From a virus, in IMG/VR virus record IMGVR_UViG_3300022926_002089, positions 1 through 32,888 of that record: a DNA stretch of 32,888 nt; one strand, 5' to 3'. This document shows, one piece after another, positions 4,748 through 26,071 of this stretch (positions within the stretch are counted from its first letter, which is position 1; the number at the start of each line of letters is the position of its first letter). The notes below the pieces were generated by a model, which ran no database searches, was not told the origin of the DNA, and saw only the letters and a program-made list of their open reading frames with translations. A program made the translations under genes and the position numbers.

Positions 4748-4760
4748 AAATATCTTTTTA

Positions 4761-7787: not shown

Positions 7788-8374
7788 AATTTACCTACTA
7801 ATATAAATCTTGTTCCTCTATCATCTTTAATATTATCTTCAATTAATACCTTAGCGTTTTTAGGCAATTGATTTTTAAATTCCTCAATATTATTAACACA
7901 GTTAATATGACCTTCTATATTAAACATATTATTAGATGTAAAAGCGAAATAAGCTTTAGACTTATCTAGTGCCTTTAAATCTTTCATTGGCTTCATATGT
8001 TCACAAGAAGTATTAATAATAAGGTTTGCATATCTTATTCTACCATATCTATTTTCATCAAACACATCACTTGTAATAAAATCTAAATTTTTATAATGTT
8101 TAAATAATCTTTGTTTTGCTATACTAATAACATTTTTATCTAAATCAATTAATGAAATCCTTTTTGCTTCTTTAAAAGACGGAATAAAGATACTTCCATA
8201 CCAACTACCTAATATGGTTATTTCTGAATCACTATTTACAATATTTAAATCTCTAATATGAGATATAATTTTTTCTTTTGACAAAAATTGATTAGGACTA
8301 TATGAGTCTAATAGATCGCTATTGTGTCTTGCCTCAGCTATTATATTTTTAAATAATTGTAAATCAATTTCCAT
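7784..8374 (-). CDS. Class I SAM-dependent methyltransferase-like protein
   Basis: The protein has 196 residues. ITILGSWYGSIFIPSF is a degenerate glycine motif I, followed by RISLIDLDKNVISIAKQRL, where an Asp ends strand 2, as in Rossmann methyltransferases. A strand near residues 115-122 (YANLIINTSCEH) fits motif IV. It is shorter than most and has a weak Gly loop, so catalytic function is not certain. The start overlaps the next gene upstream by one base. The acceptor is unknown. Confidence 0.6.
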   Translation of the reverse strand: MEIDLQLFKNIIAEARHNSDLLDSYSPNQFLSKEKIISHIRDLNIVNSDSEITILGSWYGSIFIPSFKEAKRISLIDLDKNVISIAKQRLFKHYKNLDFITSDVFDENRYGRIRYANLIINTSCEHMKPMKDLKALDKSKAYFAFTSNNMFNIEGHINCVNNIEEFKNQLPKNAKVLIEDNIKDDRGTRFILVGKL

Positions 8375-9926: not shown

Positions 9927-10743
9927 TTAATACCTTTGCATATTTTCTCATAGGAAAATGTCCTTTTGGTTGCACCCATTCAGTACAAGTTTTACAATAG
10001 TTTTCATATTTAAATAACCTAAAGTTCATCATCTTATCAATATTCTCTTTTGTCAATTCAAAAGTTTTAGATAACTCTTTATTATTAGCAAACTTTTTAC
10101 TACAATGTACAATATGTTTCTTTTCAAAATCAATAACAGGTACCATAGGAAAGGCTGCACACATTTTACGATCAATCTCATCTGCTTGTATAACATCTGT
10201 AAAATCTTTTGATCTGCCATTAAATGCTTTCCACATTGTATTTTTATGGTTTAATTTTTTCAATACTTCAGGATGATTATCTTTGTATTTGTAATAGTTA
10301 GGTGTTCTTACAACAACGTTATAGTTGTTAAAATCATTTTCAGGTATATAATCAAAGTTACCTAGTTTTGTTACTTCATTTTCATACCAATCTAATATAT
10401 TATGTTCAACATAAAGTATATCTTTATCTTCAAGTATATGTGGATATCTTTTACGAACAAATGAGTTTGATAATACTGAACATATAAAGTTAGGATATTT
10501 TTTTATTTCGTTTATTACGTCATCTAAGTTTTTAATAAGGCCAGGCTCACCGCCCAATAGACATATTCTGATTTTATAATTTTTAAGATAATCTAAAGTT
10601 TGTTTTAAAAAATTTATATCAACTGTTAGATTTCTCATTTCTAAAGTATAACTTGTACAATAGTGGCAATTCTTATTGCAAGACATTGACAAAAAGAAGT
10701 CTATAGCTAAATAATTATCTTGTATTTCGTTTAAGGTTTTCAT
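9919..10743 (-). CDS. Radical SAM protein with C-terminal SPASM/twitch-like cysteines
   Basis: I take the ATG at 10743 (274 residues, MKTLNEIQDNYLAIDFFLS); an in-frame ATG at 10761 adds six residues and overlaps the upstream gene further. The radical SAM cluster motif is CNKNCHYC (C22, C26, C29) and GGEPG lies at about 64-68. After the barrel there are Cys in KMCAAFP, VHCSKKF and YCKTC, which fit a shortened auxiliary-cluster domain. The protein is probably a sulphur, carbon or peptide-modifying enzyme. A QueE role was considered because of the QueC-like neighbour but QueE is shorter and lacks the C-terminal Cys. Confidence 0.8.
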   Translation of the reverse strand: MKTLNEIQDNYLAIDFFLSMSCNKNCHYCTSYTLEMRNLTVDINFLKQTLDYLKNYKIRICLLGGEPGLIKNLDDVINEIKKYPNFICSVLSNSFVRKRYPHILEDKDILYVEHNILDWYENEVTKLGNFDYIPENDFNNYNVVVRTPNYYKYKDNHPEVLKKLNHKNTMWKAFNGRSKDFTDVIQADEIDRKMCAAFPMVPVIDFEKKHIVHCSKKFANNKELSKTFELTKENIDKMMNFRLFKYENYCKTCTEWVQPKGHFPMRKYAKVLND

Positions 10744-11989
10744 AAAATTTATTAAATGCAATTTTTAATTTTGTTTTGTTTTTAAAAGGTGCATCTTCAA
10801 TATATTTTGGTGTTTGATAGCATTTTTCAATAATATAATCGTAAATATCTTCAGTTGTTTCATTAAGAAGTTCTTTATCAAATAAGTCATCACCTAATAT
10901 CTTTTGTATGCTGTTAATGAAATTATTTTGTTTATGTTCAAGTGTTATTATAATTGTGTTTATAATTTTATCAACTTCTTCTTTTGTCATGTATGGATGA
11001 ATAGGTAAAGTTAATATAGTATCACATACAATTTTACTTGCAAAAGTTTTATCTTTTCTGTGTTCAATGTTTTTGTACATAATGTTTTCAGATAAAGGTT
11101 TGTTATAGTGTACTTTTGCGTTTAGTATATTTTTTAACTTATCTCTATCTTCTTTGTTTTGTAATCTAATAACATATTTGTGATAGTTATGATCAAGGCC
11201 GTTTGTTGTGGATTGTATTGTAACATAATCTTTTAATTGTTCATCATAATATTTTGCTATTTCTTGTCTTTTAGATTGCCATTCTTTTATTCTATTTAAT
11301 CTAAAGTTTATAAATTCAGCGTTCATTAATAACATCTTTGAGTTATATCCTAACATCTCATTGTTACCGTGTTTTCTTAATTTTTTAAATATCTCTGCTT
11401 TATCTTTATCATCTGTAAGTATAGCACCACCTCCTGCAATACCAGCAACAACTTTGTTTGCGTTAAAACTTAATGTTGATATATCGCCAATTGATCCTGC
11501 TTTAACACCATTAAGACTTGCACCTAGTGATTGAGCTGCGTCTTCTACAAATGCAATGTTTTTCTCTTTACAAAAATCTATTATCTCTTTTGTGTCTGAC
11601 ATATTACCAAATAGATGTGGATAAACTATTGCTTTGACTTTATCCGAATACATACGTTTAATACTATCTAATGACATATGATAAGACGATATATCAATTT
11701 CGCAAAATACAGGTGTTGCACCGACTATGGATATGCAAGATGCAGTAGAAATCCAAGAAAAATTAGTTGTCAATACCTCATCACCTTCTTTTATATCTAA
11801 ACTTCTTAAAGCAAAATGTAATGCGTCTGTGCCATTACTACAAGCTACAGCGTATTTTCTACCTGTGAGTAGTTTAAGTTTATCTTCCAAAAACTCAACA
11901 TTACTTTCTTGTTCTTTTTGCATTGACTTATCAAAAAGTTCTAGGTATTCGTCTTTGTGTTCTAGGTATTCTCTATCCCAACCTGTCAT
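10715..11989 (-). CDS. DegT/DnrJ/EryC1/StrS-family PLP aminotransferase with extra C-terminal domain
   Basis: The protein has 424 residues. The fold markers are all present: SNGTDALHFAL (51-61), a GDEV/TNFSW segment, VEDAAQSLGA (148-157) and the Schiff-base lysine K179 in LSFNANK, followed by GGGAI. Family members usually transaminate nucleotide-linked keto sugars, making amino sugars for glycans or antibiotics. They are about 360-380 residues; the last 55-60 residues here (from about IQKILGDD on) are an extra helical segment. An AGCGGAG ribosome site precedes the ATG. With the glycosyltransferases nearby, a role in making an amino sugar is plausible. Confidence 0.88.
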   Translation of the reverse strand: MTGWDREYLEHKDEYLELFDKSMQKEQESNVEFLEDKLKLLTGRKYAVACSNGTDALHFALRSLDIKEGDEVLTTNFSWISTASCISIVGATPVFCEIDISSYHMSLDSIKRMYSDKVKAIVYPHLFGNMSDTKEIIDFCKEKNIAFVEDAAQSLGASLNGVKAGSIGDISTLSFNANKVVAGIAGGGAILTDDKDKAEIFKKLRKHGNNEMLGYNSKMLLMNAEFINFRLNRIKEWQSKRQEIAKYYDEQLKDYVTIQSTTNGLDHNYHKYVIRLQNKEDRDKLKNILNAKVHYNKPLSENIMYKNIEHRKDKTFASKIVCDTILTLPIHPYMTKEEVDKIINTIIITLEHKQNNFINSIQKILGDDLFDKELLNETTEDIYDYIIEKCYQTPKYIEDAPFKNKTKLKIAFNKFYENLKRNTR

Positions 11990-12755
11990 ATATAAACTCC
12001 GCTAGTTTTTCTTGCCCTTGTTTATTAGGGTGTAAATCAATTTTTGATATTCTATCAGTAGTATTGTCTAATACTTTATCAGATAAACTATAACCATTTA
12101 ATCTTGGATCAGTTGGCCATCCTATAAAGTTATTATTAATAATTTCATAATATGGACTATTGTGTATTTGTGCCAAGTATTTTTTTTCTTCTTTCTCTTT
12201 CCATTCTTTTTCCTCTTTTGTTAATTGATGAGGTTCATTTAAAATAGGTATTTGTTTAATAAAATCATCAGGAAAGTCTTTTGTTCTTTTAGCAATTAGT
12301 TGTTGCCATAGATAACCTTTAAACAAGTCTATCATTTGAAGTTGTTTGTAAGGTAACTTTAAATTTTCACAAACCATCTGAAAACTATAATAATATCTTA
12401 ATGATCTGTCTATCCAGTAATTCATACAACCCTTTGAATCATACATATCATTTGTCCATTTTGCTTTATTAAGATATAAACTTTCTATCTGATAGTCACG
12501 TCTAGGTGCTGTACTCCAAGCTGCAATAACTAAACCTATTTTAGAGTGATCAATAGTTTGTAATTTATCAATTATATTACTATAGATGTATTCTTGTCCT
12601 GCACCTGACTCACTTAAATTTATAAGTTCCATGTCTATCTTATCAGCAAGTAATTGTGGCCATTTAGGCCAACTGACATCTAATTTGGGATGATGTATGG
12701 ACGTCCATCTTTCGTTTGAATAACTACATCCACTTACTAATAATATTTTTTTCAT
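11973..12755 (-). CDS. SGNH/GDSL-hydrolase-like protein (copy 1)
   Basis: The protein has 260 residues. VSGCSYS at 7-13 places the predicted nucleophile Ser11 after a hydrophobic strand. NLSESGAGQEYI fits the Gly and Asn of blocks II-III, and IDLHPNKQGQEKLAEF near the C-terminus gives the Asp and His of block V. The spacing is D-x-H, not the usual D-x-x-H, in both this and the second copy. SGNH enzymes remove or transfer acyl groups on glycans and lipids. It overlaps the aminotransferase start by 17 nt. The acyl substrate is unknown. Confidence 0.7.
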   Translation of the reverse strand: MKKILLVSGCSYSNERWTSIHHPKLDVSWPKWPQLLADKIDMELINLSESGAGQEYIYSNIIDKLQTIDHSKIGLVIAAWSTAPRRDYQIESLYLNKAKWTNDMYDSKGCMNYWIDRSLRYYYSFQMVCENLKLPYKQLQMIDLFKGYLWQQLIAKRTKDFPDDFIKQIPILNEPHQLTKEEKEWKEKEEKKYLAQIHNSPYYEIINNNFIGWPTDPRLNGYSLSDKVLDNTTDRISKIDLHPNKQGQEKLAEFIYDRLG

Positions 12756-12775
12756 TCTATAAAATTTGCAATATG

Positions 12776-13219
12776 TTAAACAATATTTTTTTTTTCTACT
12801 TTTCCTTCATTATTAAAATACGTTTCTTTTTTTATTTTATCTGTTTCTTTTCTTTTTCTACAATGATGAATACATGTGGGTAATATTTTATCTATATCGT
12901 GGTTTGCTAGATTTGTGGCAAATTCTATCCACTCTTTGGATAAAACAATTTCATCAATAGATTTATGTTCACTTATTTTACTTACTTTTAACATTTTTTG
13001 CATTATTGGATGATTTAAAGTTTCTTTTTCATCAATCCAACAACATGGTATCAAATATCCCCTATTTGTAACAGCTGCTAATTGAGCATATTTACCTTCT
13101 TTGTTTTTTGGAGTTATCATACATTTAGGTTCTAATTCTATTTCTCCAGCAATTTCTTTTATAACTCTTTTACGACTACTATCGTATTCTAAAGATTTAT
13201 CTCGTTTTTGTTTTGGCAT
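12776..13219 (-). CDS. SPASM-like C-terminal part of a split radical SAM protein
   Basis: This 147-residue ORF has no radical SAM core, but carries LEPKCMI, LIPCCWID and PTCIHHCRKR, the cysteine pattern of a SPASM-type auxiliary domain. It overlaps the radical SAM ORF upstream by 23 nt in the +1 frame. If one A of the A5 run just before CGAGAT is skipped, the upstream ORF reads straight into this one. It is therefore probably the C-terminal half of one protein, either through a natural split, a programmed shift or a sequence error. It might also be translated alone from the ATG at 13219. Confidence 0.6.
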   Translation of the reverse strand: MPKQKRDKSLEYDSSRKRVIKEIAGEIELEPKCMITPKNKEGKYAQLAAVTNRGYLIPCCWIDEKETLNHPIMQKMLKVSKISEHKSIDEIVLSKEWIEFATNLANHDIDKILPTCIHHCRKRKETDKIKKETYFNNEGKVEKKNIV

Positions 13220-13850
13220 CTAAGGCAAACTTTTCATTCTTTGGTTTATAGGGATCATTATCATCAAGCCACCTTGACGACTGTAATACTAAAAATTTAA
13301 CTCCACTATCTTGTGCTAATTTCTGTGCTTGTTCAACATGGTTTTCATTATAACTAAAAACTATATATTGCCATATGGGAGTTTTACGTAAATATTTTTT
13401 TGACTCGACCATAATATTAAATAATTTTTCACCATCTTGGTTAATTCTGTATTTATGACTTTCGTTTGGTAAACCATCTATTCCAAATATCCACTCTGCA
13501 TATGGATTTGATTTAAAACTTTCAATAAAATATTCTCTAGGTTTAAGTGAAGAGGCGATGTGAACTTCACACTTTACTTCTTTATTTTTTAACATTTTAA
13601 GTATTTCTGCAAATTTAGGATGATGAAGTGGATCTGATAACTGACCACAAAAAACAAATGCTTTATAAAAATCTGACAGCTTATCAATTTCTTCTAAAGT
13701 TAAATCATACCCATACACTTTTTTACCTTTATCTAAAAAACCAGTTTGTCTTTGGCATCTAGGACATTGAAGTGGACATCTAAATCCTATATCAATGTTA
13801 ATTCCTTGTGTTCTTTTTAAAAACTTGCCAATGTTATCTATTTTACTCAT
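13197..13850 (-). CDS. Radical SAM core protein (N-terminal part of a split SPASM enzyme)
   Basis: The protein has 217 residues. GFRCPLQCPRCQR gives the cluster cysteines C25, C29 and C32. VFCGQLSDPLHHP stands where the GGEP-type SAM motif usually is, and GIDGLP is the later strand motif. It stops after KFALDAKTKTR, before any auxiliary-cluster Cys. Those lie in the overlapping next ORF in the +1 frame. The start ATG overlaps the end of the upstream SGNH gene by 8 nt. Together the two ORFs would give a protein of about 360 residues, a usual size for SPASM radical SAM enzymes. Confidence 0.75.
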   Translation of the reverse strand: MSKIDNIGKFLKRTQGINIDIGFRCPLQCPRCQRQTGFLDKGKKVYGYDLTLEEIDKLSDFYKAFVFCGQLSDPLHHPKFAEILKMLKNKEVKCEVHIASSLKPREYFIESFKSNPYAEWIFGIDGLPNESHKYRINQDGEKLFNIMVESKKYLRKTPIWQYIVFSYNENHVEQAQKLAQDSGVKFLVLQSSRWLDDNDPYKPKNEKFALDAKTKTR

Positions 13851-14634
13851 GTTTTAATCTTGTGTATAAAAACTCTGCTATTTGTTTGTGGCCATTTTCA
13901 TTAGGATGTTTATCATACTCACCTATTGTATTATCTTTATGGTTTGGTAATATCACTTTTTCCTCAATAGTAAATCCTCTTTGTTTTTCTACTGATGGCC
14001 AACCTAAAAAGTTTTTAGTGTTAATAAACTTTTGATATGAAAATACTAACTCATGCAATATATAACGGTCTTTATCATCTCCGTTATATTTATATCGTTT
14101 TTCAAAGTTTGGATTTTTAGAATTTTCTACAAGTTCCTTTTCAGTTTTTAAAAGTCCTGATAGCCAACCTTCATATAAACTCAGCATTTGAAATTGACAA
14201 TAAGGTAAGCTATATCTTTCACATATATTTTGTATTATAATGTAGTGTAAACATGTTTCTCTAACCCAATAAAATACATCGCCAACTCTATCTAATCTTT
14301 TATTACGCCATTGAAAATTTTTTAAATATCTGTCATTACTTTTATTACTAATAAATTTTTTGTATTCTTGCCAATCATCTCTATTTGATTGTGACCAAGC
14401 AGCTATTACTAGACCTATTTCCTCTTTAGGTGTTTTTTCAATTGTTTCAACCAATGTTTGTAAAATGTATCTGTTGCCAGCACCGTTAAGACCTAAATTA
14501 ATAACTTCCATATTCAACTTCTCAGCTAATAACTTGGGCCATTTTGTCCATGAACAATCTAAATTTGGATAACCAGAAGATATAAAATTATCAGTTGTAA
14601 AACTACAACCACTAACTATAAGTTTTTTTTTCAT
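13843..14634 (-). CDS. SGNH/GDSL-hydrolase-like protein (copy 2)
   Basis: The protein has 263 residues and is a clear paralogue of the 11973-12755 protein. Both share an early GCS motif, SW-x-KWP-x-LLA-x-K-x-x-ME-x-INL, GAG-x-x-YI, IGLVIAAWS and LPY-x-Q-x-QM. The predicted Ser is in VSGCSF (residues 7-12) and the C-terminal Asp/His in YDKHPNENGH. The copies flank the split radical SAM gene. Keeping both copies apart in sequence suggests different acyl substrates or positions. The start overlaps the upstream stop as ATGA. Confidence 0.7.
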   Translation of the reverse strand: MKKKLIVSGCSFTTDNFISSGYPNLDCSWTKWPKLLAEKLNMEVINLGLNGAGNRYILQTLVETIEKTPKEEIGLVIAAWSQSNRDDWQEYKKFISNKSNDRYLKNFQWRNKRLDRVGDVFYWVRETCLHYIIIQNICERYSLPYCQFQMLSLYEGWLSGLLKTEKELVENSKNPNFEKRYKYNGDDKDRYILHELVFSYQKFINTKNFLGWPSVEKQRGFTIEEKVILPNHKDNTIGEYDKHPNENGHKQIAEFLYTRLKHE

Positions 14635-15491
14635 AGTAATTTTAAAAGATTTTCAATTTTATCTTTATATTTAGTTAAACACATAGCTGGCCTATTCCAA
14701 TAAACACTACCACCATCTCGTATGTTTTTATCTCTAGCATAGATTATTTTTTTTCCTAACCATTTACACTCTTGTATTATTCTTGGTGCAGGATCAAAAT
14801 TAGGTTTTGTATAAACATAAGTGTCAAATATACCTAGTAGATTTTTTACTGGTACGTAAACATGGTTAAGACTATTGTTTAAATATTTGTCTTTGTAAGC
14901 TATAATACCATGTGATGAATAATTTTTAATATGTTTTTCTACTTCTTTATAGTATATCTCATTTGTACCTAAAAATAAATATTTAAATTGTATATCTGAT
15001 TTAACTGGTTTGTAAATACTAAAGTTTATAATTTTTTCAAATTTTTTTCCTTTACCTTTTGGATATACGTCATAATCACATAGATCAACGACTTTAGTTG
15101 GATTGAAATATTTTAATGCAATAGAATATTCTTTAGGATGATTTTCTGAATAGACAGATATGAGAGTACCTTTAAACAGTAAATGTAATGTTAAAAGTTG
15201 ATCAACTGTATAAGATTTTTTATTTAAATAAGCTAATGTCAACATACTTCTTCCCATTATTAATGTTATATCATTTGATGAGGGAGAGTAAGAATCAAAC
15301 ACCACATTTTCGTATTCTATATAACATTCATTAATAGCATTAATATAGTCTTGTTGAGAAAAATGATGATGTGTCAAAATGATCAATTGACTTTTAATGC
15401 CAATTGAGTTAAGATAACAACAATGTTCATAACTATAATGAAATAGCCCATCGCCAGGTTTACTTGTACATACTATATTTACCATTTTCAT
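14631..15491 (-). CDS. GT-B-like glycosyltransferase or related protein
   Basis: The protein has 286 residues from the ATG at 15491; an alternative ATG at 15485 removes two residues. The strand pattern and the block DPAPRIIQECKWLGKKIIYA, followed by RDGG and later a C-terminal helix, resemble the donor half of GT-B enzymes, where P-x-x-x-x-E-C/A is the sugar-nucleotide loop. The N-terminal half is diverged. It is the first gene of the leftward group and is preceded by a near-consensus late box. The role is tentative; sugar transfer fits the neighbouring glycosyltransferases. Confidence 0.5.
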   Translation of the reverse strand: MKMVNIVCTSKPGDGLFHYSYEHCCYLNSIGIKSQLIILTHHHFSQQDYINAINECYIEYENVVFDSYSPSSNDITLIMGRSMLTLAYLNKKSYTVDQLLTLHLLFKGTLISVYSENHPKEYSIALKYFNPTKVVDLCDYDVYPKGKGKKFEKIINFSIYKPVKSDIQFKYLFLGTNEIYYKEVEKHIKNYSSHGIIAYKDKYLNNSLNHVYVPVKNLLGIFDTYVYTKPNFDPAPRIIQECKWLGKKIIYARDKNIRDGGSVYWNRPAMCLTKYKDKIENLLKLL

Positions 15492-15558: not shown

Positions 15559-17409
15559 TTGAAAAAGGTATATTTTACTCAGATAAACAATGTAATTGCT
15601 GACGCAATATTTTTACCTCTAAGTGTAGCGTATATTTGGGAATATTGTAAAACCCAAGTTGACGATTGGGAATTAGGTAACATCTTTTTTGAAAGAGAGT
15701 CTATTGATGACTATCTAAAAAAAATAGATAATCCAGACATATTTGCTTTGAGCACTTATGTATGGAATTGGGATATTAGTACAAAGTTAGCAAGAGCTGT
15801 AAAAATAAAATACCCTAACTGTAAAATAGTTATGGGTGGTCCACAAGTACCCTACAAACAAGATTGGTTAAAAAACAATACTGACATATGCGATATAATA
15901 GTTACATATGCTGGTGAACGAGCATTTTCAGAAATATTAAAAGGCAATTATACTTATCCAGGTATAATGACAGTTAACACATATACGCCACCTAAACCAG
16001 ATAAAGAAATTAATGATATTCCTAGTCCTTATTTAAGTGGATTGATGGACAGTTTAGTCAAACCAAATAAAAAATATAGTGCGATCATAGAAACAAATAG
16101 AGGTTGTCCATATAGTTGTTCTTTTTGCGACCAAGAGTCTTTATATTATAATAAAATAGCTATGTTTGATTATAATAGAGTTATAGGTGAAATAGACTGG
16201 ATCGTAAAAAATAAAATAGATTTTTTATACTTTGGCGATAGCAATGTTGGTATGTTTAATAGGGATATTGACTTTATTAGATATATTGCTAAATGCAGAA
16301 ATCAATACGGGTATCCTAGACAAATAGATTATAGTACTGCCAAACAACAACCAAAACGAATTGTAGAACTTGGTAGAATATTAAATGAAGAAGCTAAGAT
16401 GAGGCGTGGTGTTACAATAGCTTTACAAAGTATGAATCCTAAAACATTGAAAGCTATTAGAAGAATAAATCTTGCAAATGAAAAACTTGAACAGATTGTT
16501 AATGACTATAATAAAGCTGGTGTAGATAATTACTGTGAATTAATTGTTGGTTTACCTGAAGAAACTTTAGATAGTTGGATTGAAGGTATTGGTAAAATTT
16601 TAGAGTTAGGTAGTGATCATGCTTTAACAGTACATCCTTTAAGTATTGTGCCAAACACACCTTTTTCTGAACCATCATATCAAAAACAATATGGATTAAA
16701 ATATACTAAAACAGCTGCACCTGCAGGAGGTAATTGTTATCCTAAAGATAGTAATGGTGAAACAGATATGGTTTGTTATGAAAGTAGAAGTTATACAAAA
16801 GATGAATATGTGGACATGTATTTTTTTGCAAAAGGTTTAGTTATACCACACCATTATCATGGCGTAAGTCAAATTATAGCAACATATTTAAACCGTGAAT
16901 ACAACATACCTTTTATTGATTATTATAAAGTGTTGTTTAAATATAGTAAGGAAGGTTTGGGAATATTAAATAAAGAATATAAAAATCATACGCAAAGTTT
17001 GAAAAACAGTTTATTTAAAAATGAAACATGGGGAAGAACATTAGAGGGTGGCGATGATTTTCACTTACAGGATAATGGAGCTACGGCTTCATTTTTATAC
17101 AAAAATTTAGATAAAGTTTATAAAGAAATTATTGATATTGTAAAAAAAGAATATAACTTAGATATTACCGAAGCTTGTATTTTTAATAAACATATATTAG
17201 ACACATATGAAAGAGATAATGATAAAAAAGAATTTAGTAAAAATTGGATAAGTTGGTTTTACAATAGAAAAAAATTAATTGATATAAAAAATGTTGTTTC
17301 TGTAACAACTAATAAATATAAAGATATAATAGATCATTCAAAACATTTATTTTGGTGGGGTAGAAAGTCAAAAAGGTGTTTTTTGAAATCAAAGGAGATT
17401 ATGTTATGA
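15559..17409 (+). CDS. B12-binding-type radical SAM protein (copy 1)
   Basis: The protein has 616 residues and starts at TTG, supported by alignment of its N-terminus with the ATG-started paralogue at 19737. Residues 1-130 form the Rossmann-like domain of cobalamin-binding radical SAM proteins, with FALSTYVWNWDIS and CKIVMGGPQVPY; I do not see a DxHxxG motif, as in many members. The radical SAM cluster motif is CPYSCSFC (C183, C187, C190), followed by FGDSNVG and LIVGLPEET. The family includes methyltransferases and rearrangement enzymes. The C-terminal 200 residues are an additional domain. Cobalamin use is inferred from fold. The last codons overlap the next start as ATGA. Confidence 0.8.
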   Translation: MKKVYFTQINNVIADAIFLPLSVAYIWEYCKTQVDDWELGNIFFERESIDDYLKKIDNPDIFALSTYVWNWDISTKLARAVKIKYPNCKIVMGGPQVPYKQDWLKNNTDICDIIVTYAGERAFSEILKGNYTYPGIMTVNTYTPPKPDKEINDIPSPYLSGLMDSLVKPNKKYSAIIETNRGCPYSCSFCDQESLYYNKIAMFDYNRVIGEIDWIVKNKIDFLYFGDSNVGMFNRDIDFIRYIAKCRNQYGYPRQIDYSTAKQQPKRIVELGRILNEEAKMRRGVTIALQSMNPKTLKAIRRINLANEKLEQIVNDYNKAGVDNYCELIVGLPEETLDSWIEGIGKILELGSDHALTVHPLSIVPNTPFSEPSYQKQYGLKYTKTAAPAGGNCYPKDSNGETDMVCYESRSYTKDEYVDMYFFAKGLVIPHHYHGVSQIIATYLNREYNIPFIDYYKVLFKYSKEGLGILNKEYKNHTQSLKNSLFKNETWGRTLEGGDDFHLQDNGATASFLYKNLDKVYKEIIDIVKKEYNLDITEACIFNKHILDTYERDNDKKEFSKNWISWFYNRKKLIDIKNVVSVTTNKYKDIIDHSKHLFWWGRKSKRCFLKSKEIML

Positions 17410-17993
17410 TAAGAGTTGGTGATATAATACCAAATAAAACTACCATGCATAAAGATGGTATATTAACTTCGTGGTTAGCCACACACGATTTATTTCAAAA
17501 TAAAAAAATATTACTAATAGGGTTACCTGGATTATTTTTAGTTGAATATGCAGCCACACATTTAAAAGCATATGAGTTTTATCATTCACGTATAAAAAAG
17601 TTAGGTATAGACGAAATATGGTTTACTAGTGTAGATAATTGTTTTGTACAAAATGCTTACTTAAAATCTGAAAATTTAAAACACATAAAGTGTTTACCTG
17701 ATCCAGATGGTGATTGGGCTCAATCAGTTGGAATGTTAGAAGACATGAGCAGAGAAGGTATAGGTGATAAGTGTAGTCATAGATATGCCATGATTATAGA
17801 CAATTTAATTATGAAGCATTGTAAATACGAAGATTTTACACATAATCCTATGACGTGTTTTCAAGTATCAGATGCTGATACTATTATCAAATACTTAGAA
17901 ATTATACAGACAAATTATGAAAGGTGGAATGATGACGCCAGAGACAAAGTTGACGTCCTTGGAAGAGATAAGATTAGCTCCGTATTGTCGTGA
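17406..17993 (+). CDS. Peroxiredoxin-5-like protein lacking the peroxidatic cysteine
   Basis: The 195-residue protein has AAAGGAGATT ahead of its ATG. MIRVGDIIPN, the DLFQNKKILLIGLPGLF segment and THLKAYE match Prx5-like peroxiredoxins (VG-x-x-IP, LF-x-x-KK-x-x-LIG-x-PG-x-F, HL-x-x-Y). In the family the peroxidatic Cys lies in PG-x-F-x-x-x-C; here the equivalent residue is Tyr48 (PGLFLVEYAATHL). It therefore cannot act as a classical peroxidase and may be a binding or scaffold protein. The stop lies inside the next gene, and the overlap is about 60 nt. Confidence 0.65.
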   Translation: MIRVGDIIPNKTTMHKDGILTSWLATHDLFQNKKILLIGLPGLFLVEYAATHLKAYEFYHSRIKKLGIDEIWFTSVDNCFVQNAYLKSENLKHIKCLPDPDGDWAQSVGMLEDMSREGIGDKCSHRYAMIIDNLIMKHCKYEDFTHNPMTCFQVSDADTIIKYLEIIQTNYERWNDDARDKVDVLGRDKISSVLS

Positions 17994-18573
17994 GCTTTCA
18001 TCTCTATGGTATGATAGAAAATATCTATTAGAGCATTTAGAGAGTATAGAAGAAGACAATTGGTATATATTTGATTGTGGCCACATAAGATGGACAGTAC
18101 ATGAAGCATTTAATGCTAGGCGTGAATGTAAAAATTATCCACTAAGTGAGTTTCACTATGAATTGATAAATCTTTTTACACCTGCAATATCTTTTGATAC
18201 TATTCTATATACACAAACAGCAATAGGTGGTGCACCACCACACCAAGATAGAAATAGACCTACTGCTTTAAATTTTGCAATACAAGGTGAATTTAGTAAA
18301 ACAAGCCCTCAAATATTTTATGATTCTTTTGATAGGAGTTCAGCAAAGTATACAATGACATATGAAAAAAGTAACATAACAAATGAATTTGCACCTTGGA
18401 TATTTAAAGGTCCCGAAATACATGGTGTTGAAAATGAAACTGAACATAATAGAGTTATTATTACTTGTGCTTGGAGACATAATACTTATGAAGATATTGA
18501 AAAACGTTTAATAGATGGCACTTTAGTAAATTGGGAACAAAACAAAAAAAATAAAAGGATTAAATTCATATGA
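17932..18573 (+). CDS. Fe(II)/2-oxoglutarate oxygenase-like protein (1)
   Basis: I chose ATG 17932 (213 residues, MTPETKLTSL), preceded by AAAGGTGG; ATGs at 17929 and 17917 are alternatives. APPHQDRNRP gives an H-x-D pair (H104, D106). EIHGVENETEHNRVIITCAW supplies the distal His164 and Arg174, completing the iron and 2-oxoglutarate set of a jelly-roll oxygenase. Such enzymes hydroxylate amino acids, sugars, lipids or nucleic acids. The start overlaps the preceding gene by about 60 nt, in another frame. The substrate is unknown. Confidence 0.7.
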   Translation: MTPETKLTSLEEIRLAPYCRELSSLWYDRKYLLEHLESIEEDNWYIFDCGHIRWTVHEAFNARRECKNYPLSEFHYELINLFTPAISFDTILYTQTAIGGAPPHQDRNRPTALNFAIQGEFSKTSPQIFYDSFDRSSAKYTMTYEKSNITNEFAPWIFKGPEIHGVENETEHNRVIITCAWRHNTYEDIEKRLIDGTLVNWEQNKKNKRIKFI

Positions 18574-19211
18574 GTTATGATAAAGCATTAGCACGCCTTT
18601 TTACTATGGGTGATTGGTTACAAATGAAAACTCATATTAATACACGAAAACTTATGAAAGAAATTGAGCCGTATAATGACTCATGGAAACCTTATAATTT
18701 GAGAAATCCAAATAATAGGTGGGGATTAAGTGTGACAAGTTTAGATGGTAAATTAAGTGGTATACCTGATTTAGATAGTTTACTACAGTATAACAATATA
18801 CATGGTACACAGATAAGAAATTCTGATATTAACAAGTATACTGAGGTATATAACAATTCTGAAGAATTACAAAAAATAATTGAACCTTGGAAACCTTGGT
18901 TAGGTAGATGTCATTTTTTAAAATTAAATACAGGTGGTTATTTTCCTGAACATTATGATATTAATAAAATAGAATATGATTATGATGAAATACGATTTAT
19001 AGCTTTTATAAACAAGTGTGATAAAAAAGATTTGAAATTCATATATGAAGATACGGTTAGAGATGTAAAAGATGGTCAGTTATTTTACTTTAACGCAAAC
19101 AAAAGACATTCAGTTTTTAGTACATCGGATGATATTATTATGTTAGTATTTTGTATGAAATTTGATGAACATTTATTTGAAAGACTAATAGAACAATATA
19201 GGTATGCATAA
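18570..19211 (+). CDS. Aspartyl/asparaginyl beta-hydroxylase-like oxygenase (2)
   Basis: The protein has 213 residues. GGYFPEHYDIN carries H128-x-D130, and ANKRHSVFST carries distal His180, the spacing of Asp/Asn beta-hydroxylase-like members of the Fe(II)/2-oxoglutarate superfamily. The R142 region (EIRFIAFINK) fits the core strand. It overlaps the upstream gene by 4 nt and the downstream gene by one base. Proteins of this type occur in marine phages with unknown substrates. The three neighbouring oxygenase-like proteins differ in sequence, so they are not simple duplicates. Confidence 0.7.
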   Translation: MSYDKALARLFTMGDWLQMKTHINTRKLMKEIEPYNDSWKPYNLRNPNNRWGLSVTSLDGKLSGIPDLDSLLQYNNIHGTQIRNSDINKYTEVYNNSEELQKIIEPWKPWLGRCHFLKLNTGGYFPEHYDINKIEYDYDEIRFIAFINKCDKKDLKFIYEDTVRDVKDGQLFYFNANKRHSVFSTSDDIIMLVFCMKFDEHLFERLIEQYRYA

Positions 19212-19744
19212 TGTGGTATCATAAAAAATTAAAATTACAATACGACACAAATGTTTTCAATGACATAATTAAATATGCTGAAAGTGCAACATGGAGAGAA
19301 GGGTATGATCGAAATGGTTTACTTTGGAATGTTGAAGAGCTGCCTTTAGATACTAAACAGTTTCCTATACTAAATGAATTGTATGAAGGTCTAAATGCAG
19401 AATTTAAAAGACCATCATTTTTTATTAGTAACGTGAAACCTGGTGGGTTGGTAAACCATATTGATCACAACAAGTGGGGCAATCTAGGTATACCTTTGAA
19501 AGGTGATTTTGAAAACACACCTCAATACTTCTACGATCAATTCAATCATCCTGTAGAGTCGTTTGTGGTTGATAGTCCTGTTATATTCAATACACGTATG
19601 TTACATGCTGTGCCTAGACAGTTAACTGACACAGGACCTCGTTGGGTGTTGATGATGGATTTATTTGAGTGGGTAGATAAACTGTTTAATAAGATTGATA
19701 ACAATACTATATGGACGGATACAAAAAATTTTAAAAATGCGTAA
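19211..19744 (+). CDS. Fe(II)/2-oxoglutarate oxygenase-like protein (3)
   Basis: The protein has 177 residues. KPGGLVNHIDHNKWGNLGIP carries the pair H83-x-D85 and TRMLHAVPRQLTDTGPRWVL gives distal His132 and Arg144 for iron and 2-oxoglutarate. The smaller size is typical of compact jelly-roll oxygenases in marine phages. The stop overlaps the following radical SAM gene by 8 nt. With the two preceding genes it forms a run of three oxygenase-like proteins between two B12-type radical SAM genes. Confidence 0.72.
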   Translation: MWYHKKLKLQYDTNVFNDIIKYAESATWREGYDRNGLLWNVEELPLDTKQFPILNELYEGLNAEFKRPSFFISNVKPGGLVNHIDHNKWGNLGIPLKGDFENTPQYFYDQFNHPVESFVVDSPVIFNTRMLHAVPRQLTDTGPRWVLMMDLFEWVDKLFNKIDNNTIWTDTKNFKNA

Positions 19745-21404
19745 CTTCTATTTTTTACAAATACCTTTAAGCACAGACGCAGCCTATCTACCTCAAGCAG
19801 TAGGTACGATCTGGTCTTATTGTAATCAGTTTGAAGAGGTAAATACAAAATATAAACTTGCAGGAGTTTGGTGGAATAAAAAAATAGATATAGTTGATCC
19901 TGATTTTGTTGCTGCTAGTTGCTATATGTGGAATTGGAAAATAACATATGACGCATTAAAAGAAATACGAAAAAGGTATCCTAAATGTAAAATCGTTGTC
20001 GGAGGACCTGAACCACAATATACATCAGAATGGTGTAAGAAACATCCCGAAATAGATGCTGTTATAGCATACTACGGTGAAGAAACTATGCGTAAGATGT
20101 TAGTTGAAGATACATTCAATTTACCTGGTGTTGTTACAAAAGATTTTAATAATGCTTCTGAGGCAGAATATGCTGATCCTAAAATGATACCTAGTCCTTA
20201 TCTTAATGGTTTTTTTGATAATTTATTAGAAGGTAATACACAAAAGGTTAGAGCTGTTTTTGAAGGCAATAGAGGTTGTCCTTATACTTGTTCTTTCTGT
20301 GATATAGGTCACAAAAAATATACAAAAATTCAAATGTTTGAAACAGAAAAATGTTTAAAAGAATTAGAATGGATGTGTAAGAGAAATTTAAGTGCCATTG
20401 ACGTTGCAGATAGTAATTTTGGTATATTTCCTAGAGATGAAAAGTTTGTTGATTATATTGTTTCGCAGAAAAAACTTGGAAACTTTAATGGTAGATTTAT
20501 GCCTACTTGGGCAAAAACTCACGGTGAAAAAATAATGAAATTAGCCAAAAAACTACAAGACGCTAGTGTTGACGACACATTTGGGTTTAGTTTACAAAGC
20601 ACCAATCCCGAAACTTTAGATAAAGTAAAAAGAAGAAATGCGTTTGATATAAAAAGTTTTAAACCTATTATACAAGATTTAAAAAAGTCTGGTGTATCTT
20701 CTTACACAGAATTAATATTTCCTTTACCAGGAGATAGTATTCAGACTTTCAAACATGGATTACATGAGATAGTTGACATGCCTTCACCATTTGATATGAT
20801 ACAGATTAATACATTAAGTAGACTTAGTAATACTGAATTTAATACAGGTTTTCCAGAAATGATATGGCAGAATATAAAAGGTACAGCTAAACCTTATAAC
20901 AATGATGTCATAGATGAAATCGCTATTGCAACAGATAAGATGACAAAAGAAGAAGTGTTTGAAGGCCTTTTCTATAGTAGAAGTTTTTTAATACCCATGT
21001 ATTGGTACGGATTATCGAAATATATGGCAGATTGTTATTATGAAATTAATAATAATAGAAGTGATCTGTACAAAGATATTTATCAAAATCTATTTAAACA
21101 AAAAGTTTTTAACAATCATAAGTTAGATGTAAGAAATCATTATTTTAAAGCTTTAAACGAATATAACGATATTGGATATAAGATACTTATTGATGATATA
21201 AATTATTATACAGATACAGCTTACTCTCATTTATTTTATGTTGAAAATAATATATTTGATGTATTAAAAGATATGTATCCAGAATATGATGAAATTATTG
21301 ATCTTAATAAAAAAGATTTTAGACCAATAGAAAATAAAAAAGAATGGCTAAAAGACATTCATATAAAAGGAAGATTTAGTGAGTCTTGGAAAAAATTATG
21401 TTAA
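19737..21404 (+). CDS. B12-binding-type radical SAM protein (copy 2)
   Basis: From ATG 19737 the protein has 555 residues; an in-frame ATG at 19695 is inside the upstream gene and gives an extension absent from the paralogue. The domain order matches copy 1: a Rossmann-like cobalamin-type domain (YMWNWKIT, KCKIVVGGPEPQY), then CPYTCSFC (C181, C185, C188), FGFSLQSTNPETLDKV and LIFPLPGDS. IPSPYLNG before the core is shared with copy 1 (IPSPYLSG). The two differ across their length, so they probably act on different positions or substrates. The stop overlaps the next start. Confidence 0.8.
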   Translation: MRNFYFLQIPLSTDAAYLPQAVGTIWSYCNQFEEVNTKYKLAGVWWNKKIDIVDPDFVAASCYMWNWKITYDALKEIRKRYPKCKIVVGGPEPQYTSEWCKKHPEIDAVIAYYGEETMRKMLVEDTFNLPGVVTKDFNNASEAEYADPKMIPSPYLNGFFDNLLEGNTQKVRAVFEGNRGCPYTCSFCDIGHKKYTKIQMFETEKCLKELEWMCKRNLSAIDVADSNFGIFPRDEKFVDYIVSQKKLGNFNGRFMPTWAKTHGEKIMKLAKKLQDASVDDTFGFSLQSTNPETLDKVKRRNAFDIKSFKPIIQDLKKSGVSSYTELIFPLPGDSIQTFKHGLHEIVDMPSPFDMIQINTLSRLSNTEFNTGFPEMIWQNIKGTAKPYNNDVIDEIAIATDKMTKEEVFEGLFYSRSFLIPMYWYGLSKYMADCYYEINNNRSDLYKDIYQNLFKQKVFNNHKLDVRNHYFKALNEYNDIGYKILIDDINYYTDTAYSHLFYVENNIFDVLKDMYPEYDEIIDLNKKDFRPIENKKEWLKDIHIKGRFSESWKKLC

Positions 21405-22309
21405 ATCCTTTAAACAAGTTAATTTGGAATAAAGTACAGGAAATATTTTATTGGAATATATCACCTGAAAGTCCTATAAATCAATTACCATTTACACAAG
21501 ACTTTATTACCGCTTGTGAAGAAGAATTTTCAATGACGGTAAGAAATAAAGTTTATCCTATTAATTTAGGCAATGTAGATGTGTGGCAATCTAAAACCAT
21601 GGGAGACTTTGTAAAAGAAATTGATCAACAATATCAAAATAATTATTTCGTAGGTGAAAATGGTACAAGCACAACAGGTGTTGTTGGTACAATTTATGAC
21701 GTAGAAAATAAACCAATAACAAATAAATGGAATATTAGAGGTAACTCTCTTGTTAAACGATTACAACAAATGCAAAAAAATAATCCAAGTTTATCAATAT
21801 TGGATATGGGATGTGGTGTTAATGAGTATAAAAAACATTTAAATAATGTTACTGGTGTTGATCCTTACAGACCTGAAGCTGATATATTATCTAAACAAAG
21901 CGATTTTGAAACTAATGGTAAAACATGGGATGTGATTATATGTTTTGGTCCTCAAAATTGGTATACCTATGATGAACAGTACAGAAATTTTTTAAAATTA
22001 AAAGAGTGTTTAGCACCAAATGGTCTTCTTTTGTGGAGCCATGTTCATCATTACTATAAAGTATTTCAACCAGATCATCAGTATGCACATACATGGATTC
22101 ATGGTGATATGAAACATGCTCAAAGAAATAGTGCATTTTATTTTTATGATAGAGAGTGGAAATATACGTGGTATTTTAATTGGACTGAACACGCTGTAGA
22201 AACTTTAAGTAAACATGTTGGATTATCAATCAATAAAGTTGATTATGATCATTGCAATTTGTATAGACCTCCAATGTATAGACTATTTGTGGAGATGAGT
22301 CATGTTTGA
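21398..22309 (+). CDS. Class I SAM-dependent methyltransferase
   Basis: The 303-residue protein starts at ATG 21398; an in-frame TTG at 21386 is the alternative. SILDMGCGVNEYKKHL (motif I, DMGCG 136-140) and then VTGVDPYRPEADI, with the acidic residue ending strand 2, define the SAM site. WDVIICFGPQNW is the motif IV region. The first 115 residues are an N-terminal extension. It overlaps the radical SAM gene by 7 nt. The acceptor is unknown; sugar, lipid or small-molecule methylation is plausible. Confidence 0.8.
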   Translation: MLNPLNKLIWNKVQEIFYWNISPESPINQLPFTQDFITACEEEFSMTVRNKVYPINLGNVDVWQSKTMGDFVKEIDQQYQNNYFVGENGTSTTGVVGTIYDVENKPITNKWNIRGNSLVKRLQQMQKNNPSLSILDMGCGVNEYKKHLNNVTGVDPYRPEADILSKQSDFETNGKTWDVIICFGPQNWYTYDEQYRNFLKLKECLAPNGLLLWSHVHHYYKVFQPDHQYAHTWIHGDMKHAQRNSAFYFYDREWKYTWYFNWTEHAVETLSKHVGLSINKVDYDHCNLYRPPMYRLFVEMSHV

Positions 22310-22361
22310 TGGCATGAACAGATGTTATATAACTGATAAATATAAAAGATTATTAAATTGA
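22302..22361 (+). CDS. Possible 19-residue small ORF
   Basis: An ATG overlapping the stop of the methyltransferase gene opens a 19-codon frame ending in TGA, just before the ribosome site of the TonB receptor gene. A GGAG lies 6-9 nt before the ATG. Its sequence begins MFDGMNRCYITDKYKRL. The length is too short to judge coding potential, and it may simply be a leader for coupled translation. Confidence 0.25.
   Translation: MFDGMNRCYITDKYKRLLN
22335..22342 (+). promoter_or_regulatory. Possible weak late promoter before the receptor gene
   Basis: GATAAATA differs from TATAAATA by the first base and lies 30 nt before the ATG at 22373, similar to the spacing at 1222 and 2180. It lies within the small ORF at 22302-22361. 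This would allow the receptor and transporter genes to be expressed apart from the enzymes upstream. Confidence 0.3.
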
Positions 22362-22372
22362 GGTAAATTATT

Positions 22373-24001
22373 ATGATGAGATTATTGATTTTATTATTGT
22401 TTATATCAAGTTATGCCTTTTCACAGGAAACTTGTAGTTGGAATAACAATACACCATGTGTTGTTATAGCAAAATCAAATATTACAAATTCAAACGATTT
22501 AGGTGACAAAATTACACCATCATCTATTATAACAAAAAAAGATATTGAAAAATACAACCTTATAGACTTACCAAAAGCATTAAATTTTATTCAAGGATTA
22601 GATATATCACAATCTGGCCCTACAGGTCAACAAGGTTCAGTTTTTTTTAGAGGTACAAACTCGAATCATGTATTGGTTTTATTAAACGGAATACCTATAA
22701 ATGATCACTCAACTCCCACTGGCGCTTTTGATGTTGGACAAGATTTTATGTATAGTATTCAACAAATAGATGTATATAAAGGCTCATCGGGAGCTCATTG
22801 GGGTGCAGATGCTGTAGGTGGTGTTATAAATTTTAGAACCACAGTAGACTATTCTAAAAAAATAAATGTATCAGGTAACAATAATGATAAAACGTTAAAT
22901 GGTAATTATTTTACTAGTTTAAATGGATATGATTTATCAATAACAGCAGGACAACATAAGTCTAAAAATATATCAGCACTATCAGGTGCTGATGAAAAAG
23001 ATGGTACTGAAAATAAATCAGTATCAGTAAATGTTAGTAAATGGTATAACGATATTAATTGGAGAACGAGTTTTTTTACAAGAAATACATTTTCTGAGTT
23101 AGATGGACATAATGTTCTTGTACAAGATGGTAAGTGGTCTGATAATAACTTTTATGCTTTACAAACAGGATTAGATTATAAAAATACAAGTCTAACTCTA
23201 CATACACACGAATATGATAGAATTTATGATGATGCTAATTATAAAAGTGATAACTATACAATAAAGGCCACACAACAATATGATAATTTTGGATTTGGTT
23301 TTGATTATAAACATAATCAATCTTTATCTCAAACACAATGGAATAATTACGCAGGTAATCATCACAATTTTGGATATTTTTTTAATGCTTCATATAATAT
23401 ATTTTCATATCATCATAGATTTGACGAAGAACATGAAACTTATAAGTTAGGATTTTTTAAAGAATTAGAAGACGGTTTGAGTTTAAGTGGCAGCACATCT
23501 ACAAGTTATAAAGATAAAACTCAATACACAACTATTGAATATGGTGACTCTCAGGAATTGACTTTGACTAAAAATAATTTTTCAACAACGATATTTAAAA
23601 ATGATATAGGTAATTTAAACACAGACGGTATAGAATTTGCATATGGTGAAAAAGATTTTAAAGTATTTGCAAGTCATTTGAACAGCAAAACTGGCGATGC
23701 TGTGTCCTTGAGAAGACCTAACTGGTCTGTTGGTTTTATGCATAACTATGACTTTAAAAACAACTTTTCTTTAACTACAAATTATAAATTTAAAGGTGAA
23801 CATTTAGATATACATAACTCTAACTGGTCAACTATATCTATGCCTGAAACACATTTACTAGACTTAAATTTAGGCTACAATTATTACGGTATACAATTCG
23901 GTGTAAGTCTTAATAATCTGTTGAATGAAAAGTTTGAGTCACCTCATGGATTTAACCAAGAAGGTAGAAAGTTAACTTTAGGATTTAATAAATCATTTTA
24001 A
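22373..24001 (+). CDS. BtuB-like TonB-dependent outer-membrane receptor
   Basis: The protein has 542 residues with a signal peptide (about residues 1-18, RLLILLLFISSYAFSQ). The plug follows: ITKKDIEKYN, LPKALNFIQGLDISQ, VFFRGTNSNHVLVLLNGIP, IDVYKGSSGAHWGADAVGGV and INFRT. Most of these match the cobalamin receptor BtuB in order and wording more closely than siderophore receptors. PCVVIAKS near residue 30 may be the TonB box. The rest is an Asn/Tyr-rich beta-barrel ending in an aromatic residue (FNKSF). At 542 residues it is somewhat shorter than BtuB (about 600). It needs the host TonB system. A GAGG site precedes the ATG. Confidence 0.82.
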   Translation: MMRLLILLLFISSYAFSQETCSWNNNTPCVVIAKSNITNSNDLGDKITPSSIITKKDIEKYNLIDLPKALNFIQGLDISQSGPTGQQGSVFFRGTNSNHVLVLLNGIPINDHSTPTGAFDVGQDFMYSIQQIDVYKGSSGAHWGADAVGGVINFRTTVDYSKKINVSGNNNDKTLNGNYFTSLNGYDLSITAGQHKSKNISALSGADEKDGTENKSVSVNVSKWYNDINWRTSFFTRNTFSELDGHNVLVQDGKWSDNNFYALQTGLDYKNTSLTLHTHEYDRIYDDANYKSDNYTIKATQQYDNFGFGFDYKHNQSLSQTQWNNYAGNHHNFGYFFNASYNIFSYHHRFDEEHETYKLGFFKELEDGLSLSGSTSTSYKDKTQYTTIEYGDSQELTLTKNNFSTTIFKNDIGNLNTDGIEFAYGEKDFKVFASHLNSKTGDAVSLRRPNWSVGFMHNYDFKNNFSLTTNYKFKGEHLDIHNSNWSTISMPETHLLDLNLGYNYYGIQFGVSLNNLLNEKFESPHGFNQEGRKLTLGFNKSF

Positions 24002-24002
24002 T

Positions 24003-25289
24003 ATGATTGATCTCATACTTTGGGCTGTCATTGGTACTATAAGTGGTATTATATTTGGTATTATACCAGGTGCAGGACCATTTGTTGCTACAGCAGTTTT
24101 ATATCCATTTTTAACTGATATAAATGTGGTTAATGTGATGATGTATTATATCACAGTACTAATTGCTACAAATTATACTAATAGTGTGACCGCTATACTT
24201 TATGGTATTCCTGGTGATGCTACTGCTATAAGTACAGCTCGAAATGGTCATAGACTATTCTTAAAGGGATTTGGCAGTTTAGCTGTATCAAGCAACGCTA
24301 TCAGTAGCACAGTGGGTGTAATATTAGCTACTACTGTTTTTGTTTTAGTATTACCAAATATAATCGAAATATTTAAATTTTATAATAGTATCATTCAAAC
24401 AATTGTTGTTTCAGCTGCAATAATATTAATCACATTATTAACTAAACAAAATAAACTAGTTACTATTTTATTATTTTTATTTGGTGGTATTATTGCAAAA
24501 ATAGGTATTGATCCTATAACCTTTGATAGTTTTCTTGTTTTTAATAATTCTTATTTAGCTATAGGAATACCATTTGCAAGTGTGATGATAGGCCTATATA
24601 TTGTGCCTGAGTTGACAAGATATAAAAAATTTAAAATTGAGATTCCTAAACGTATAAATAATTTTACAGTTGGCAAAGATACAACCAATTCTACATTACT
24701 AGGCAGTTTTATAGGATTTTGGTGTGGTCTAATACCAGGTGTTACAAATATTCTTGGCAGTTATGCTAGTGCAAGTATAGTTAAAAAGTTTTTTAAAAAA
24801 CCTGTACTTAAAAGCATTGCGGCCGCAGAGGCAGCTAATAATAGTGGTGCTCTTAGTTCACTTTTGCCTTTGCTTATCTTAGCAATACCAATCACAGGTA
24901 GTGAAGTGCTAATCTATTATATAATGTTAGAAAGTGGTTTTACTTTTAATGCTAAAAATACAGTAGAAAATTTAAAAGATATAATTTATATTATTCCTTT
25001 TGTTACTGTTTTTTGTTTGTGGATTAGTTGGTATGGCTTTAATCTGTTAGGAAAAATTGCATACTTCTATAAAAAATATAGACACTATGTTAATTTAATC
25101 CTCCTTTCTACTATCAGTACAGTAAGTATCTTAATATTTTCCATACATGAATGGATGTTTTTTTGTATACTTTCACTCTCAGTAATCGGATATTTAATAA
25201 AACGTTGGGATACAACTCCAATTATATATGGATACTTTCTTAGCGATTTATTTTACGAAAATTTAATAAGAACATTAATAATAATATAG
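24003..25289 (+). CDS. tctA: TctA-like large permease of a tripartite tricarboxylate transporter
   Basis: The protein has 428 residues with about 10-12 hydrophobic segments. The N-terminus GTISGIIFGIIPGAGPFVAT and the downstream TAILYGIPGDATAI with RNGHRLFLKGFGS are hallmark TctA blocks. A second GLIPGVTN follows at about residues 240-250, giving the internal repeat of the family. Typical TctA is about 500 residues, so this one is shorter, mainly in the middle. TctA normally works with TctB, which is not seen, and with TctC; the TctC-like gene follows 8 nt after the stop. Substrates in the family are citrate and other carboxylates; the substrate here is unknown. Confidence 0.82.
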   Translation: MIDLILWAVIGTISGIIFGIIPGAGPFVATAVLYPFLTDINVVNVMMYYITVLIATNYTNSVTAILYGIPGDATAISTARNGHRLFLKGFGSLAVSSNAISSTVGVILATTVFVLVLPNIIEIFKFYNSIIQTIVVSAAIILITLLTKQNKLVTILLFLFGGIIAKIGIDPITFDSFLVFNNSYLAIGIPFASVMIGLYIVPELTRYKKFKIEIPKRINNFTVGKDTTNSTLLGSFIGFWCGLIPGVTNILGSYASASIVKKFFKKPVLKSIAAAEAANNSGALSSLLPLLILAIPITGSEVLIYYIMLESGFTFNAKNTVENLKDIIYIIPFVTVFCLWISWYGFNLLGKIAYFYKKYRHYVNLILLSTISTVSILIFSIHEWMFFCILSLSVIGYLIKRWDTTPIIYGYFLSDLFYENLIRTLIII

Positions 25290-25297
25290 GAGAAAAA

Positions 25298-26071
25298 ATG
25301 AAAAAAATAATGTTAATAATAATGAGTATGTTTATAACAACTTCTTTGTATGCTCAAATACAAATAATAAATCCAGGCTCACAAGAAGGTGTGTTTAGAC
25401 AAATACTTTCAACTATAGGTGAAACAACTGAACATAACTTTATCCAAGCAGATAATCCAATTACTGCATTTTCACATATTAGTAAACAAAGTAATCCAGT
25501 ATTGACTGTTTGGTCAAGTGAATGGCCAGGCGACCCGTCATTAAAAAGTCCAAAAGTTACTAAAGATAATGTAGTTGCTTTAATGACCTATGAAACACTT
25601 ATGTGTAGTAGACAATACAATTCTTTAGAAGATATGGAAGGACAAACCGTAAAAATTGCTACATGGGGAAGTGAACCTGTTGCAAAATTTTTAACAAAAT
25701 TAGGTGCAAAATATAATGTTAATTTTGTCGTTGTACCTTATTCTGGCAGCGGAAGTACAACAAAAGGTTATATCGGAAAAGATGCTGATACAGTCTTTAC
25801 AATTACTTCACGTCAAGCCGCATTAGAAGAAGATGGTTCAACTAAATGTATTGCCTTTTCTGAAAAAGGTCAGTTAGGTTTTAGATTTGTTGATGCTATT
25901 ATTGTTGTTAATGCTGACACAACCTTAACAAACAAATTACGTTCTACTTTAACTAACATCTCTACTTCTACCGAGTGGAATAGTAAATTTAAAGGTTCTG
26001 TAACTTATGTAGGTGGCACAGAATCAAATATTAATATGTTTGATGAAGCTGTAGTTAACTTTAGTAAGTAA
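25298..26071 (+). CDS. TctC-like periplasmic solute-binding protein
   Basis: The protein has 257 residues with a signal peptide (MKKIMLIIMSMFITTSLYAQ) and a strong AGGAG site 7 nt before the ATG. VPYSGSGSTTKGYIGKDADT is close to the ligand-loop region of TctC/Bug receptors, and LTNKLRSTLTNISTSTEWNS is their usual C-terminal helix. It is shorter than most TctC proteins (about 300-320), with a reduced N-terminal lobe. It should deliver a small carboxylate or similar solute to the adjacent TctA. The 3' end overlaps the convergent ATP-grasp gene by 11 nt. Confidence 0.72.
   Translation: MKKIMLIIMSMFITTSLYAQIQIINPGSQEGVFRQILSTIGETTEHNFIQADNPITAFSHISKQSNPVLTVWSSEWPGDPSLKSPKVTKDNVVALMTYETLMCSRQYNSLEDMEGQTVKIATWGSEPVAKFLTKLGAKYNVNFVVVPYSGSGSTTKGYIGKDADTVFTITSRQAALEEDGSTKCIAFSEKGQLGFRFVDAIIVVNADTTLTNKLRSTLTNISTSTEWNSKFKGSVTYVGGTESNINMFDEAVVNFSK

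Follow-up and report, generated by a model that had tools for sequence, protein, structure and literature searches.

The window analyzed here is a fragment of 32,888 bases from the virus record IMGVR_UViG_3300022926_002089, with tail-fibre-type genes at either end. It contains a gene for a predicted BtuB-like TonB-dependent receptor (22373–24001) and two genes for B12-binding radical S-adenosylmethionine (SAM) enzymes (15559–17409 and 19737–21404; enzymes 1 and 2). We consider it likely that the receptor and the cobalamin-dependent radical SAM methylases of the same run form a phage module for the acquisition and use of vitamin B12 (cobalamin). An earlier note, made from the DNA letters alone, had proposed that the phage brings both B12 capture and B12-using enzymes; the predicted fold, the receptor tree, gene linkage and the riboswitches of relatives argue for this proposal. 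The three open reading frames (ORFs) are intact and lie on the plus strand in one run, as that note had described. The ORF of enzyme 2 opens at 19695 (TTG), and its likely ATG start is at 19737. The dN/dS ratio for the scorable receptor and radical SAM pairs was ~0.07–0.19, which indicates that the genes are maintained.

A TonB Plug domain was found in the receptor (Pfam, 4e-20), and its best match by sequence among solved structures was BtuB (82.9 bits, residues 46–161), with CirA at 39 and FecA at 25. The top NCBIfam models were two B12-receptor models (95 and 94 bits, far under the cut-offs). Modeling with AlphaFold 2, based on an alignment of 31 window and locus sequences, led to a model with a mean predicted local distance difference test score (pLDDT) of 85.5 and a predicted TM score (pTM) of 0.86. 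Foldseek gave Escherichia coli BtuB as the best match of this model. In the VIA comparison, the top 11 rows were all E. coli BtuB (Z 37.0–41.5; root-mean-square deviation 1.8–2.3 Å), and the next family was FyuA (Z 35.0). Thus, sequence and predicted structure both agree with the BtuB-like receptor of the earlier note. According to the model, the receptor belongs to the BtuB-like fold class, and we infer that cobalamin is its ligand.

In the phylogenetic analysis, which took in six E. coli receptors other than BtuB, the phage and SAR11 receptors formed one clade (100/100) apart from the siderophore and pyrroloquinoline quinone (PQQ) receptors. Other riboswitch-controlled receptors were nearest to this clade and more loosely joined, and E. 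coli BtuB was located on a long branch with weakly supported placement. The earlier note had named the tree beforehand as a test that could overturn its reading; the receptor grouped with the riboswitch-controlled SAR11 receptors and not with the siderophore/PQQ group. Its closest full-length bacterial relatives belong to Pelagibacteraceae (SAR11), with an identity of 30–37% in the best segment and 32–38% over alignment A2. No cultured phage with this receptor was found in the phage collection, and the better matches there were set aside, being either contaminating sequence from bacterial chromosomes or contigs from the human gut with low identity.

An adenosylcobalamin riboswitch of the AdoCbl-II class was found just upstream of the receptor in 14 of the 17 SAR11 loci, and a classical cobalamin riboswitch was located directly upstream in all five checked relatives from Pseudomonadota outside SAR11, which are more distant. 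Among 118 SAR11 genomes, 29 contained a plug domain, always exactly one, and 24 contained AdoCbl-II, also always one; all 24 were among the 29 plug-bearing genomes (Fisher p = 1.7e-20). The plug was located a few hundred bases downstream of the riboswitch in every coordinate pair compared. Since there is a single plug per genome and AdoCbl-II in 24/29 of these genomes, SAR11 seems to use TonB receptors mainly for B12.

The same riboswitch class (69.6–93 bits) was found in 21 of the 50 viral records carrying a relative of the receptor. The riboswitch precedes by ~20–120 bases either the receptor gene or, where DUF6580 comes before the receptor, the DUF6580 gene (coordinates converted by hand). 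Five phage leaders (L112, L149, L155, L160 and L164) have in common a SAR11-type sequence after the aptamer; other phage leaders are short, with the Shine-Dalgarno stretch inside a small hairpin. These features suggest a SAR11 origin and control at the level of translation. When three phage leaders were folded as RNA, the z-scores were ~-0.4 to -1, which are uninformative by themselves. Because the receptor of sister phages comes with AdoCbl-II of the SAR11 type, sometimes together with DUF6580, the receptor was probably acquired from SAR11.

Both radical SAM proteins contain an N-terminal B12-binding domain followed by a radical SAM domain with CxxxCxxC, and both domains scored above the curated Pfam cut-offs (Radical_SAM 43.8 bits and B12-binding 36.0 bits for enzyme 1; 50.7 and 45.6 bits, respectively, for enzyme 2). 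Their best solved relatives are TokK and CysS (3e-66 for enzyme 1 with TokK). The model of enzyme 1, of moderate overall confidence (pLDDT 72), superposes on TokK with hydroxocobalamin with a TM score of 0.81, in line with the cobalamin-type domain that the earlier note had read from the sequence. In addition, W69 of enzyme 1 aligns with Trp76 of TokK, and the same column is W in enzyme 2 and relatives; Trp76 of TokK and Trp75 of CysS occupy the lower face of the cobalt in cobalamin (PMC12846815). A cobalamin pocket missing from both enzymes was the other outcome that the earlier note had named as overturning its reading, and the TokK-like model and the shared Trp speak against it. The scores for the KedN5 family NF033712 were 195.9 and 161.7 bits, under the cut-off of 700 bits. 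Judging from sequence, both enzymes fall into the group of TokK, CysS and KedN5, which are cobalamin-dependent methylases.

The pairing of receptor and enzymes that the earlier note had pointed out recurs in SAR11 and in other marine phage contigs, where the B12-type radical SAM genes are unrelated. A gene was counted as B12-type radical SAM when CxxxCxxC was far from the N-terminus, and viral loci were included when 1.7 kb or more of sequence followed the receptor (n = 68). Such a gene was found in 45 of these loci, within 30 bp of the receptor in 27 of them, and at least six kinds of radical SAM gene are represented. As a control, 41 receptor-free loci of at least 7 kb each around the neighbouring tail gene were used, and one contained such a gene (45/68 vs. 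1/41, p = 3e-12, a value that is too small owing to near-copies among the loci). The domain search gave a PF02310 match at E ≤ 0.001 in 16 of the 50 viral records. B12 use is less sure for a short kind of 417–465 aa, since its B12-binding score was under the Pfam cut-off (20.9 bits for L002; L006 not listed). In SAR11, a B12-type radical SAM gene was located near the receptor in 13 of 17 loci, within ~600 bp in 12 of them, and in 7 of 14 genomes the neighbour gene of the receptor was the sole PF02310 match (coordinates compared by hand; draft genomes).

The SAR11 arrangement also allows another explanation, namely that the receptor imports B12 chiefly to feed host metabolism or the general cofactor pool and less for the phage enzymes, and that its neighbourhood was inherited from SAR11 islands. 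It is consistent with this that the SAR11 receptor, too, adjoins B12-type radical SAM genes, that the receptors of L113, L128 and L152 stand beside class I ribonucleotide reductase genes without radical SAM, and that in L155 and L158 the receptor and DUF6580, again without radical SAM, are located between the terminase and DNA-replication genes. However, at least six radical SAM kinds beside phage receptors would not be expected from an inherited neighbourhood, and in the seven SAR11 genomes mentioned there is no PF02310 match besides the adjoining gene. We therefore regard supply of the host as possible and clearly the less probable purpose.

Several observations weigh against the proposed B12 module. 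No riboswitch was found in the 63 bases upstream of the window receptor or elsewhere in the window; it was probably lost in this lineage. At the sequence level, the similarity to BtuB is found mainly in the plug, and the score for the BtuB equivalog TIGR01779 was 95.2 bits against a cut-off of 599.7. No B12-type radical SAM gene was found within reach in 23 of the 68 viral loci, and contigs of the L139/L141 type lack both a riboswitch and a radical SAM gene in the vicinity. Note that several viral loci are near-copies, so the counts are not independent events. Finally, the receptor is followed by TctA, which belongs to a family of carboxylate permeases for which B12 transport is not known.

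The plus-strand run (15559–26071) contains ten ORFs, from enzyme 1 through the small secreted protein:

15559–17409, plus strand: B12-binding radical SAM enzyme 1, a TokK/CysS/KedN5-like methylase (PF04055 and PF02310 above cut-off)
17376–17993, plus strand: peroxiredoxin-like protein (PF08534, 1e-11; PHROG 2281, peroxiredoxin)
17917–18573, plus strand: protein without assigned family, 2-oxoglutarate (2OG)-oxygenase-like by eye only (84–86% conserved in sister contigs; no Pfam match)
18570–19211, plus strand: cupin or 2OG-oxygenase-like protein (Cupin_2 0.001 and Asp_Arg_Hydrox 0.05, both weak and under cut-off)
19211–19744, plus strand: protein without assigned family, 2OG-oxygenase-like by eye only (82–94% conserved in sister contigs; no Pfam match)
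19737–21404, plus strand: B12-binding radical SAM enzyme 2 (PF04055 and PF02310 above cut-off; TokK 2e-45, CysS 2e-37)
21386–22309, plus strand: methyltransferase-like protein (PF13489, 28.4 bits, cut-off 27)
22373–24001, plus strand: BtuB-like TonB-dependent receptor, probable cobalamin receptor (plug domain, tree, predicted fold, SAR11 relatives under AdoCbl-II)
24003–25289, plus strand: TctA-family permease (PF01970, 7e-55)
25298–26071, plus strand: small secreted protein, resembling TctC in its position and to the eye only (~81% conserved)

The TctA gene starts 2 bp after the receptor, and the gene of the small secreted protein is next in the same run. A complete TctABC transporter was not recognized, as TctA is present and the gap before the next gene is too small for TctB. 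The small protein was considered as TctC and not accepted, with no Pfam, NCBIfam or PDB match. The TctA relatives in SAR11 are 23–31% identical and uninformative. The cassette of the window type is conserved in many marine contigs, one of them of 165 kb. In sister phages TctA is 81–83% conserved behind the receptor even where the receptor was exchanged: the gene before TctA belongs either to the window type (68%) or to a clearly different, more BtuB-like type (27–28%, the L018 type), which is preceded by DUF6580. L043, a contig of a Flavobacteriaceae metagenome-assembled genome, contains a receptor that closely resembles the L018-type phage receptor; this is probably a phage contig binned into that genome.

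The persistence of TctA 2 bp behind both receptor types, together with the lack of a riboswitch at the window copy, could mean that the window receptor now binds another ligand and that receptor, TctA and small secreted protein together take up a carboxylate or a metal chelate across the cell envelope. We find this improbable. The exchanged L018-type receptor matches TIGR01779 over its full length (174.8 bits, also under the cut-off of 599.7) and adjoins DUF6580, close relatives without TctA retain the B12 riboswitch, and the fold of the window receptor is nearest to BtuB.

The DUF6580 membrane protein adjoins the receptor in phages and in SAR11 (L018:7882–8271, L155:8879–9400 and L027:7858–8385) and is a candidate inner-membrane cobalamin permease; no sequence match to any solved transporter was found for it. 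It was also considered as a general B12 gene, and this was rejected, as no cobalamin riboswitch was found in any of the loci searched, 19 from Bacteroidota and one from Pseudomonadota. Most of the inspected loci of this Bacteroidota and Pseudomonadota set had no adjoining receptor. On these grounds, a B12 role is argued for SAR11 and the phages only.

Judged by the neighbouring tail gene, the nearest cultured phage is the Pelagibacter phage Mosig (63%), with HTVC008M next, and sequence similarity of this kind points to a SAR11-like host as likely. In other phages, the receptor lies elsewhere in the genome; in the related phages L128, L152 and L113 it was observed near class I ribonucleotide reductase genes, and NrdA of L128 shares 84% identity with its Mosig counterpart. 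A minus-strand cluster at 3286–15491 of the window contains glycosyltransferase-like, DegT aminotransferase, nitroreductase and radical SAM genes and probably serves sugar or surface chemistry. Given these sugar-type genes on the other strand, surface or virion glycans are our guess for the targets of the two enzymes.

In the proposed module, the phage-made receptor of the BtuB kind would capture cobalamin on the infected SAR11-like cell and would be powered by a TonB-type system of the host. Candidates for the inner-membrane step are DUF6580 in some phages and, in phages of the window type, TctA or proteins of the host. The captured cobalamin would then charge the radical SAM methylases of the phage, which would modify some target molecule; we infer a benefit from B12 during infection. 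Since only about a quarter of the searched SAR11 genomes have a receptor, the phage copy could also open B12 import in cells without their own. In the lineage of the window, the receptor lies inside the radical SAM operon. ExbD was considered as a marker of the TonB system and is a weak one, since ExbD and TolR are homologous.

TonB receptors are common receptors of phages and colicins, and the locus lies between tail-fibre genes; both points would fit a surface decoy, a superinfection-exclusion protein or a surface change against rival phages or bacteriocins. Adjoining B12 riboswitches and B12-type enzymes are not expected for a decoy, and we consider such a function highly improbable.

A receptor gene beside B12-needing enzymes, in many cases with a host-type B12 riboswitch, suggests that viruses related to those infecting SAR11 secure the scarce vitamin B12 during infection. 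The chances appear even that there is a large group of SAR11-type myophages with a B12 economy of their own, comprising the receptor, a new small permease (DUF6580), a host-derived AdoCbl riboswitch and radical SAM enzymes, which mirrors a SAR11 operon where the only TonB receptor of the genome serves the adjoining radical SAM enzyme. Marine phages are already known to carry auxiliary genes for the synthesis or transport of nutrients. Among open-access papers, the only ones searched, no report was found of a phage BtuB, of a phage-borne cobalamin riboswitch or of cobalamin capture and use together; the author of the earlier note was likewise not aware of the pairing. A btuB riboswitch was reported in an OM43 host, and the regulation of SAR11 btuB by B12 was called unknown in 2022 (PMC9296465); the AdoCbl-II riboswitches bear on this question, as they were found in 24 of the 29 SAR11 genomes that have a receptor. 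The results also offer a plausible use of imported B12 in SAR11, and viral competition for a scarce vitamin becomes testable.

Among known systems, cobS and cobT of marine myophages have been described as cobalamin-related auxiliary genes (PMC9599517, PMC9301287). Like the window module they are B12-related genes of ocean phages; however, these papers concern synthesis, whereas the window module would provide uptake and use, with sensing in the sister phages. TokK, CysS and KedN5 have in common with the window enzymes the domain order, CxxxCxxC and the Trp under the cobalt (TM score of 0.81 for enzyme 1), but the identity in the structural match is 26%, the scores are far under the KedN5 cut-off, and no carbapenem or enediyne genes were recognized near the window enzymes. 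The window receptor shares with E. coli BtuB the plug sequence and the whole predicted fold (Z up to 41.5), and cobalamin-riboswitch control is also found in its relatives. Unlike E. coli BtuB, to which it is ~21% identical over the structural alignment, it is encoded by a phage and scores under the NCBIfam equivalog cut-off. The SAR11 receptor is chromosomal, whereas the window has TctA in place of the riboswitch and DUF6580; the SAR11 receptor nevertheless forms the sister clade (100/100) of the phage receptors, with the same kind of neighbour gene and the same riboswitch class (RF01689) as in the sister phages.

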